A stretch of DNA of 64,000 nucleotides from Nitrosopumilus sp. GTDB lineage: Archaea; Thermoproteota; Nitrososphaeria; Nitrososphaerales; Nitrosopumilaceae. A program made the position numbers and the translations under genes. Below are positions 27,599 through 32,201 of the stretch, piece by piece. Position 1 is the first letter of the stretch, and the number at the start of each line of letters is the position of its first letter. Below the pieces are notes generated by a model. That model saw only the letters and a list, made by a program, of their open reading frames with translations. It ran no database searches and was not told the origin of the DNA. Location of the stretch: positions 124,001 to 188,000 of the forward strand of contig NZ_JAILWC010000002.1 of the NCBI RefSeq assembly GCF_025699125.1. The letters run 5' to 3'.

Positions 27599-28135
27599 CT
27601 ATTCATCTATTTCAAAAAACTCTTCACATTTTGAGCAATACAATCTAAAAGTACCGTCAGTCAATTCGGTTTTCACAAGTCTCTCATCAGTATGAAGGGG
27701 ACATGTGTTTTTGAGTTGTTCTGTTGTTGAAAATCTAAAAAATCGCAATATGTCCGTGGCAGTAATAATTCCCGAAATTTCTCCTGCATCAAAAACAGGA
27801 ATCTTTCGAATCTTTTTCTCAATCATGATATCAGAAGCCTGTAAAACAGATGCCTCAGCTGAAATATGAATAACAGGAGAGGTCATGATCTCAGAGATTT
27901 TTGTAGACGGAGAAATTTCATCAACAACCACTTTAACTGCAAAATCCCTTTCAGTCATGATTCCTACAGGTTCTTTGTTTTTCATCACTATCACAGAACC
28001 TACTCCGTCATTTTTCATAATTTTTGCCGCCTGTTGAATTGTATGCTCTGAATGAACCATTTCAACATCATGAGTCATCAAATCTTTTACCAAAGTTCTC
28101 AGAGGATCAGGATTCATGATGGTATTTTCATCCAC
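27599..28135 (-). CDS. CBS-domain pair protein with C-terminal zinc ribbon
   Basis: A 178-residue cytoplasmic sensor: two CBS motifs (residues ~15-70 and ~78-133, each ending in the IMTERDF / IITATDI type strand) form one Bateman module that would bind adenosyl ligands. The C-terminal ~35 residues hold C145, H148, C167 and C170, a likely zinc ribbon that may bind nucleic acid or protein. Met7 is an alternative start. Downstream of the stress-related genes on the same strand, but 43 bases from the nearest. Confidence 0.88.
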   Translation of the reverse strand: MDENTIMNPDPLRTLVKDLMTHDVEMVHSEHTIQQAAKIMKNDGVGSVIVMKNKEPVGIMTERDFAVKVVVDEISPSTKISEIMTSPVIHISAEASVLQASDIMIEKKIRKIPVFDAGEISGIITATDILRFFRFSTTEQLKNTCPLHTDERLVKTELTDGTFRLYCSKCEEFFEIDE

Positions 28136-28177
28136 ATAAAATTAATTTAACATGTGTTATAATTTCCAAATTTGAAA

Positions 28178-28609
28178 TTAACATGTTGCAGTATTGCATG
28201 TAATTTGATTAAGTTCATCCCATTGATTGTCAATTACAGCAGAAATGATTTTTCCATCAACTATCATCACATCAATTGTATGTAGTGTGATGTCTTCAGA
28301 AAGATCCAAGTTTTCTCTATTTCCAAAGCCAGCATGTAGTGTTTTGAATTTGCCTTTCAAAAAGAATTTTGAATCATCAACATTAGATGAGATGATTTCA
28401 ATTTCTAATGTATCAGAAATTCCATCATAAGAAAACGTAGGACTAGACACAATAAACTGTTTAGCAATAGCAATCATTTTTTTAGAATTATCTGAAGATA
28501 ATTCATCAAACTGAATCGGAGAGTCTTGAAAATCATATGATGTTAAAACAACTATAGAAATAGCAACCAATATGATTCCTGCCACAATTATTATACCTTT
28601 AAAGAACAT
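28178..28609 (-). CDS. Hypothetical secreted or membrane-anchored protein, 143 aa
   Basis: An N-terminal hydrophobic segment (residues 4-24) serves as anchor or signal; the rest is a beta-rich extracytoplasmic domain ending in CNTATC, a vicinal two-Cys tail that could form a disulfide or hold a metal. No family recognised. It sits between the UspA-type gene and the CBS gene on the same strand and may share their transcript (27-base gap). Confidence 0.7.
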   Translation of the reverse strand: MFFKGIIIVAGIILVAISIVVLTSYDFQDSPIQFDELSSDNSKKMIAIAKQFIVSSPTFSYDGISDTLEIEIISSNVDDSKFFLKGKFKTLHAGFGNRENLDLSEDITLHTIDVMIVDGKIISAVIDNQWDELNQITCNTATC

Positions 28610-30652: not shown

Positions 30653-30881
30653 GACCTAAATTTTGGAGAAAGTATACTAAAATAGAAAGCACGATTCTCA
30701 AATATGAATATAAAAAATATCTTTAGTACTAGTTAGAATTTGTTTCATATGATGTATGACAATAAAAATAATAAAAGCAGGGTAGATGATTCTCAGAAAG
30801 GGTTTTGAAAAAATTACAATAATTTTCATTGTTGGTAATTAGATGATAACTTTAATGTAGTAAATAATTGAATTTGCTCAT

Positions 30882-31478
30882 ATGACATCAATAGATAAAA
30901 TGGCCATAACTTGGTCACTCGGAATTGTAGCAGTATTTGTTGCCTTGGCCGCTGCAGGAGATTCCATTCAGGGAATTGCAGACGTTCCAGCACCTGAACC
31001 AGTAATACGACCGGGAACTGTAGAAACCCCAAGCTATGAAGAAACAAAACCCAAAACAGATCCATTTGCAGATCTTGCTGCTGAAGTAAAAGAACAAAAC
31101 AAAGAGATGACATCTGAATCAATGTCAAAACAAGACAAAGAGCAGAAGCAGATGAAAGAACAGGAGCAGAAAGGCCCTAAGACAGTTAACGTGTCAATAC
31201 CATCTGGAACATCAGTACCAGGATGTGAAGAAACAAACGAATGTTATCTTCCATATTCAGTCACAATCTCAAAAGGAGATACAGTGAGTTGGTCAAACGA
31301 TGATACTGCAGCACATACTGTAACTAGTGGTTCTCCTTCAGAAGGTCCTGATGGAAACTTTGACAGTAGTCTAGTCATGAGTGGGGCTGTTTACGAGTTT
31401 ACGTTTGAGCAAACAGGAAGTTATGATTACTTCTGCATGGTTCATCCCTGGATGACTGGAATTGTTCAAGTAAACTAA
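30882..31478 (+). CDS. Membrane-anchored blue copper (plastocyanin-like) protein
   Basis: An electron carrier on the outer face of the membrane. Residues 8-25 form an N-terminal anchor, ~35-100 a charged Lys/Glu/Gln-rich linker, and ~102-198 a cupredoxin domain with type 1 copper ligands H145, C185, H188 and M191 (motif YFCMVHPWM). Two extra Cys (C115, C121) may form a disulfide. Ammonia-oxidising archaea use many such proteins in place of cytochromes c. Monocistronic; a T-rich stretch follows the stop. Confidence 0.92.
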   Translation: MTSIDKMAITWSLGIVAVFVALAAAGDSIQGIADVPAPEPVIRPGTVETPSYEETKPKTDPFADLAAEVKEQNKEMTSESMSKQDKEQKQMKEQEQKGPKTVNVSIPSGTSVPGCEETNECYLPYSVTISKGDTVSWSNDDTAAHTVTSGSPSEGPDGNFDSSLVMSGAVYEFTFEQTGSYDYFCMVHPWMTGIVQVN

Positions 31479-31542: not shown

Positions 31543-31607
31543 GACGAGGGTAATCGATTCAAAAGCTTTGTCTATACTGCCTACGATTTGATTAAAATGT
31601 CCTCGTC
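31543..31607. terminator. Imperfect stem-loop between convergent genes
   Basis: GACGAGG (31543-31549) pairs with CCTCGTC (31601-31607); TAATC (31551-31555) then pairs with GATTA (31590-31594), leaving a five-base bulge. The 3' arm touches the stop codon of the cupin gene. On the minus strand a T-rich stretch follows, so it may end the cupin message; a small RNA is an alternative. Confidence 0.35.
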
Positions 31608-31995
31608 AAAACCAAAATGTCTTACCGCTTTTCATAAAGGATAGTTGTGATGAGGAGTGATTTTCAGTTGCACCATGCCAATGTGGTGTTCCAGACGGAA
31701 TTAAAACAGATTCATTTTCTCCAAGTTCCAGAGATTCATCTATCTTGAATTTATGATCATTAATTTTTGAAAAAGTTACTATTTGACCAATGCCTTTCAT
31801 TCCAATAATGATTTGATCTGAATCGTGAAGATGAATCTTGGATTTCGAACCCTTTTCAAATTTAATAAAATACGATTTTAATTCATCTGTAGATAAGTTT
31901 TCAGATATACGATTAAGGTAGACATTGCCAGACTCACGCCCAGTTTTATCATCCTCCAGATTTTCATTAATTATGATTTTCTTAATGTTTGTCAT
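31606..31995 (-). CDS. Cupin-domain protein, 129 aa
   Basis: A single beta-barrel cupin with metal-ligand pattern H55, H57, Q61 in the first motif and PHWHG (H105, H107) in the second. Start taken at the ATG at 31995, which overlaps by 14 bases the stop of a 40-residue His/Cys-rich peptide gene just upstream; a longer frame from 32079 would run through that gene and lacks a well-placed TATA box. Cupins of this size bind a metal or a small ligand. Coupling to a metal-binding peptide suggests metal sensing or storage; substrate unknown. Confidence 0.8.
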   Translation of the reverse strand: MTNIKKIIINENLEDDKTGRESGNVYLNRISENLSTDELKSYFIKFEKGSKSKIHLHDSDQIIIGMKGIGQIVTFSKINDHKFKIDESLELGENESVLIPSGTPHWHGATENHSSSQLSFMKSGKTFWF

Positions 31996-32104
31996 GAATA
32001 GGATGTTTTGTGCCATCTGCATGGATGCAGTTTCCAGCATCATGTTTGTGTGTACTTTTGTCTCCCTTACAATGTTCATCTGAACAGTTACATTTGTCTG
32101 CCAT
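31982..32104 (-). CDS. His/Cys-rich metallothionein-like peptide, 40 aa
   Basis: A 40-residue frame in which 4 Cys (C5, C7, C12, C26) and 7 His (H11, H19, H21, H28, H34, H37, H40) make up over a quarter of the protein; the start reads M-A-D-K-C-N-C. A TATA-like AATTAAAAG at about 32118-32128 lies the right distance before the ATG for leaderless transcription. The stop overlaps the cupin start by 14 bases, so translation is probably coupled. The composition points to binding of copper, zinc or nickel in the cytoplasm (no signal peptide). No named family recognised. Confidence 0.65.
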   Translation of the reverse strand: MADKCNCSDEHCKGDKSTHKHDAGNCIHADGTKHPIHDKH

Positions 32105-32201
32105 GAGAAAAATATCTTTTAATTGTTAAAAAAGATTGTGCAATATTCCAAAGTTGGTTTTCGTAGAAATGTTTGAGATATGCAGTGTTCTAGTTGTCAT
32201 A

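Follow-up and report, generated by a model that had tools for sequence, protein, structure and literature searches.

Undescribed, probably metal-binding micro-proteins of about 40 residues in ammonia-oxidising archaea

Closest described systems and anatomy of the peptide

Like prokaryotic metallothioneins of the SmtA/BmtA type (Metallothio_Pro), the peptide described here is short and evidently cytosolic, with a CxC motif and both Cys and His as ligands; unlike them, it has only 4 Cys (many members of its family have fewer), more His than Cys and another ligand spacing, and 17 members are without a Pfam match. Haloarchaea possess zinc-finger micro-proteins of under 70 aa that carry two C(P)xCG motifs; zinc binding is predicted for them, and stress roles belong to some (PMC10716476, PMC11241148, PMC6562870). 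The peptide family shares with these an archaeal origin and a size under 70 aa (33-63 aa among members), but it has a CxC + HxH + CxH layout instead, and the aligned members contain no C(P)xCG motif. In Halobacterium, the small zinc-finger regulator Brz is encoded directly upstream of bop (PMC2253796), an arrangement that resembles ours in that a tiny gene with metal-ligand residues directly precedes a gene of the same orientation; unlike Brz, the peptide has a downstream gene that varies and matches no zinc-finger family. Lastly, an archaeal NifX/MinD-ferredoxin/DUF134 cluster is adjoined by three probable relatives of the peptide from DPANN archaea (L096, L109, L197), whereas the copies of ammonia oxidisers lie outside that setting.

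The peptide gene occupies positions 31982-32104 on the reverse strand of a 64,000-nucleotide stretch of Nitrosopumilus sp. (hereafter the window), and ORF translation gives MADKCNCSDEHCKGDKSTHKHDAGNCIHADGTKHPIHDKH, with the 4 Cys and 7 His in 40 residues that an earlier sequence-only reading had counted. Across 16 aligned members, C5, H21, C26, H28, G31 and H34 are invariant and M1, C7 and D30 nearly so, within the consensus C-x-C-x(3-4)-[CH]-...-[HY]-x-H-x(4)-C-[IV]-H-x-D-G-x(2)-H-x-[IV]. Most conserved columns are thus possible metal ligands (CxC...HxH-x4-C[IV]HxDGxxH), and the ligand set varies between two broad forms: the window peptide represents the form that has a third Cys, and many members have His at that position. 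AlphaFold2 modelled the peptide with three short strands (residues 20-22, 25-27 and 33-35) at moderate confidence (mean pLDDT 73.5), and PDB searches by sequence and by fold returned nothing significant and no solved relative. No Pfam or NCBIfam family was matched by the peptide; weak Pfam hits to DUF6485 (E 0.17) and, in two members, to Tcp10_C (E 0.015) fell below cut-off and were taken as chance. The Metallothio_Pro profile was unmatched by the window peptide at E up to 1 and by 17 members at 0.1. The earlier description of the peptide as metallothionein-like holds in the sense of a conserved, probably metal-binding protein of no recognised family.

Ammonia-oxidising archaea depend heavily on copper, and to our knowledge little is known of their intracellular metal handling; in our literature searches no archaeal metallothionein turned up. 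With its fixed Cys/His ligands, the conserved small peptide presents itself as a direct candidate for such handling. The reading we lean towards, at somewhat better than even confidence, is a stress-linked cytosolic metal-binding mini-protein that would serve as a small buffer or carrier of metal. Having no signal peptide, it would stay in the cytosol, where the CxC near the N-terminus and the following HxH-x4-C-x-H-x-D-G-x2-H would most likely adopt a fold around one or two metal ions, with Zn(II) or Cu(I) the likeliest metals; it may be made under stress and may then buffer or carry metal. The main rival is a zinc-finger-like micro-protein in which the metal is structural and the peptide binds protein, RNA or DNA and regulates, rather than stores. 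We regard this rival as possible but rather unlikely: the D-G turn and the I/V residues beside the ligands suggest a defined fold and not a loose metallothionein, the small predicted model has strands, and regulatory or stress roles have been described for small zinc-finger proteins of archaea (PMC6562870, PMC2253796), but the peptide has no C(P)xCG pair, contains more His than Cys and matches solved structures neither by fold nor by sequence.

Coding evidence and distribution of the family

Cys/His composition alone is little proof of a gene here; Cys/His-rich short ORFs do occur by chance in the window, and the antisense ORF over the same stretch has a Cys+His fraction even higher than that of the peptide ORF. 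The case for a real gene is instead made by its relatives, because 27 of 250 Nitrosopumilaceae genomes, from 6 genera, gave profile matches (a few copies decayed) and because these are under strong purifying selection, with a mean pS of 0.69 and a mean pN of 0.079 across 66 pairs from 12 genomes of one synteny class (the pairs L036-L037 and L036-L042, which are out of register, were left out of this reading). A protein search of the same 250 genomes returned clear homologues, the best being an 85% identical copy from another genus (G013) that sits in a different gene context and differs from the window peptide with pS 0.39 and pN 0.08. The frame is kept in relatives, a point that the sequence-only reading had singled out for checking, except in one copy of the window's own genus that carries in-frame TAA codons. 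That apparently decayed copy lies in genome G153 (L034, 5801-5848, reverse strand). Sequence conservation of this kind marks the peptide as a genuine conserved protein-coding gene. The opposite reading, in which a chance ORF happens to precede the cupin, can appeal to the chance Cys/His-rich ORFs of the window, but we give it almost no credence: it is refuted by the 85% identical copy in another genus and another context, by the strong purifying selection, and by the conserved position of start and promoter.

Outside Nitrosopumilaceae, a search of 398 genomes drawn across the phylum added no carrier, and a DNA pattern scan of an 84,980-species collection revealed further archaeal copies, including some in Nitrososphaerales, where a dedicated search found 3 carriers among 70 genomes, one of them weak. 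Scored against a profile built from Nitrosopumilaceae rows only, the Nitrososphaerales copies reached 52 bits, the candidates from Pacearchaeota 30 and from Micrarchaeota 28, and chance pattern matches up to 22. Because 30 and 28 bits are to be read against chance matches at 22, the two DPANN lineages are probable, not certain, members of the family. Many bacterial matches of the DNA pattern proved to be chance frames, the bacterial candidate L112, which adjoins a cysteine desulfurase, did not rise above chance level when scored with the archaeal profile, and the single match among viral contigs was likewise by chance.

The family is patchy, and since only 2 of about 95 genomes of the window's own genus carry the peptide, one of them with in-frame stops, it is dispensable there. 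Judged by record titles, groundwater, lakes, soil and probably estuaries are the sources of many named carriers, habitats that hint at adaptation to places with variable metals. We interpret the family as an undescribed one of roughly 40-residue, probably metal-binding micro-proteins of ammonia-oxidising archaea, often located among stress genes.

The cupin and other neighbouring genes

In the window, the peptide happens to head what would be a two-gene unit, whose second cistron, at 31606-31995 on the reverse strand, encodes a cupin of 129 aa and divergent sequence. The two genes overlap by 14 bases (31982-31995, peptide end and cupin start), and our data bear out both this overlap, as proposed earlier, and the cupin start at 31995. 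The cupin passes Pfam gathering scores (Cupin_2, 28.0 bits against 27.2; Cupin_1, 26.0 against 22) and possesses the ligands HxHx3Q together with the His of motif 2, with Gln where Glu is usual (HxHx3-4E), as also in its homologues; calling the metal-ligand pattern complete was therefore slightly generous, while the HxHx3Q...H pattern itself is present. Cupin homologues begin near 31995 and not upstream through the peptide, the other possibility that had been flagged, which means that the peptide region does not represent an overlooked N-terminal part of the cupin. Translation of the cupin here is probably aided by ribosomes finishing the peptide.

Relatives of the cupin occur in 192 of the 250 family genomes, all distant (only 28-42% identical where aligned) and located elsewhere, and these 250 genomes hold no close relative. 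The cupin is absent from the other 29 loci of the peptide search (3-kb loci, about 20 of them genuine) and from the neighbour clusters of the larger peptide loci, and we found none in plasmids. The sequence-only reading had envisaged a dedicated peptide-cupin pair for metal storage or sensing and had suggested looking for the peptide upstream of the cupin in relatives, where the pairing turned out not to be conserved (the G013 copy, for one, has a different context). In favour of such a system are the 14-base overlap and the retained metal-ligand residues of the cupin, but with the cupin missing from every other peptide locus examined, and lacking a close relative in 250 family genomes, a specific storage or sensing pair is very improbable and as a general system largely refuted; the arrangement is a local one-off of this genome rather than a system.

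Close coupling of the peptide to the gene behind it, which had also been claimed, does recur in several lineages, with a downstream gene whose identity varies. At 14 loci from three genera, an M17 leucyl aminopeptidase gene flanks the peptide on one side, with an ABCE1-type ATPase gene further down on the other; at 13 of these the peptide stop and the first codon of a conserved 62-aa ORF overlap (TAATG or ATGA). This 62-aa ORF (MTVENAIMRLSDLIMEREQ...), of unknown family, stands between the peptide and the ABCE1-type gene (L043, L045 and other loci of the synteny class). Two copies at the aminopeptidase-ABCE1 site (L127, L129) have lost several Cys and kept the promoter, and L129 also keeps the small ORF that follows. 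Elsewhere, a universal stress protein (USP) follows 2 nt downstream of the peptide (G190, G200), and in a Pacearchaeon a MinD-type ATPase with ferredoxin motifs follows after 3 nt, with NifX-type genes in front; two Micrarchaeota candidates have a DUF134 gene nearby, and one of them a MinD-type gene as well.

This stop-to-start spacing of -14 to +3 nt, seen in four settings with unlike downstream genes (cupin, 62-aa ORF, USP, MinD-type ATPase), is what a regulatory leader cistron would predict, in which the short first ORF, translated in a metal-dependent manner, would govern reinitiation at the gene behind it. Many other copies, however, stand alone with no close co-directional gene behind, and because these stand-alone copies conserve the same residues, we consider a leader-peptide role improbable.

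Among other neighbours, 8 peptide copies have a USP gene within 5 kb and 5 have one within 0.6 kb, against a background of only 16-24 USP genes per genome in these genomes. The blue-copper (cupredoxin) gene that had been noted beside the peptide and cupin is real (30882-31478, forward strand) and runs convergently to them on the other strand; cupredoxin genes also lie near several peptide copies, which we simply note. A Pfam-less protein with a His-rich C-terminus (MGFNQ...HAEQVPGT) occurs near the peptide at L037, L084 and L092, in Nitrosopumilaceae and Nitrososphaerales.

Promoters and a possible stress regulon

A TATA-like element some 29 nt ahead of the start is common to the peptide copies, for which reason their transcripts are probably leaderless, and upstream of it they share a further element. 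In the window the TATA-like element is TTTTTTAAC at 32125-32133 (reverse strand), 21-29 nt before the peptide ATG; the well-spaced TATA box of the sequence-only reading is thus upheld by its position, which is the same in other members, and less so by its sequence, which is weak.

USP promoters in the same genomes possess a full dyad, for example TTATCA-N4-TGAAATT or ATATCA-N4-TGATAT. With a matrix trained on ten USP promoters, peptide promoters being excluded from training, we found the dyad TTATCA-N4-TGAAAATT at 56-58 nt before the start in 11 of 18 peptide promoters (shuffle p < 0.05), and the best score of the matrix fell at -56 to -58 in 12 (four of them from one synteny class), with six others lacking the dyad. 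Of the 12 peptide promoters tested, 8 reached a score of 5.6 bits; 89 other genes preceded by a TATA-like element yielded 10 such scores (Fisher p 0.0005, Mann-Whitney p 0.0013), some of these 10 being universal stress proteins themselves. The start coordinates of L037 and L041 are slightly off in this comparison, with the result unchanged. Related loci are not independent. The window peptide's own copy, AAACCAACTTTGGAATAT at the conserved dyad position (32143-32160, reverse strand), is weak and indistinguishable from chance (2.6 bits, shuffle p 0.25), and the exact dyad pattern occurs at 4 places in the window's genome versus 2 in the control, with two of the 4 in one USP promoter region. Given this weak copy and these counts, the regulon idea rests on the relatives of the window peptide.

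The dyad common to peptide and USP promoters offers a starting point for approaching a possible stress regulon of these archaea. Taken to its full extent, the idea would be that a dyad-controlled stress regulon of ammonia-oxidising archaea (universal stress proteins, CBS-domain proteins, some cupredoxins) includes an undescribed family of metal-binding mini-proteins, and that these have been placed time and again, as a first cistron with translational coupling, before different partner genes, supplying metal to them or removing it from them; we put this forward tentatively, as a doubtful extension.

Dyads resembling those of USP promoters were also seen in the window before the CBS-domain gene (28161-28178, reverse strand, score 12.8; gene at 28117, reverse strand) and before the cupredoxin gene that begins at 30882 (30823-30840, forward strand, score 9.4), and the cupredoxin gene beside the peptide in G203 has the dyad too.
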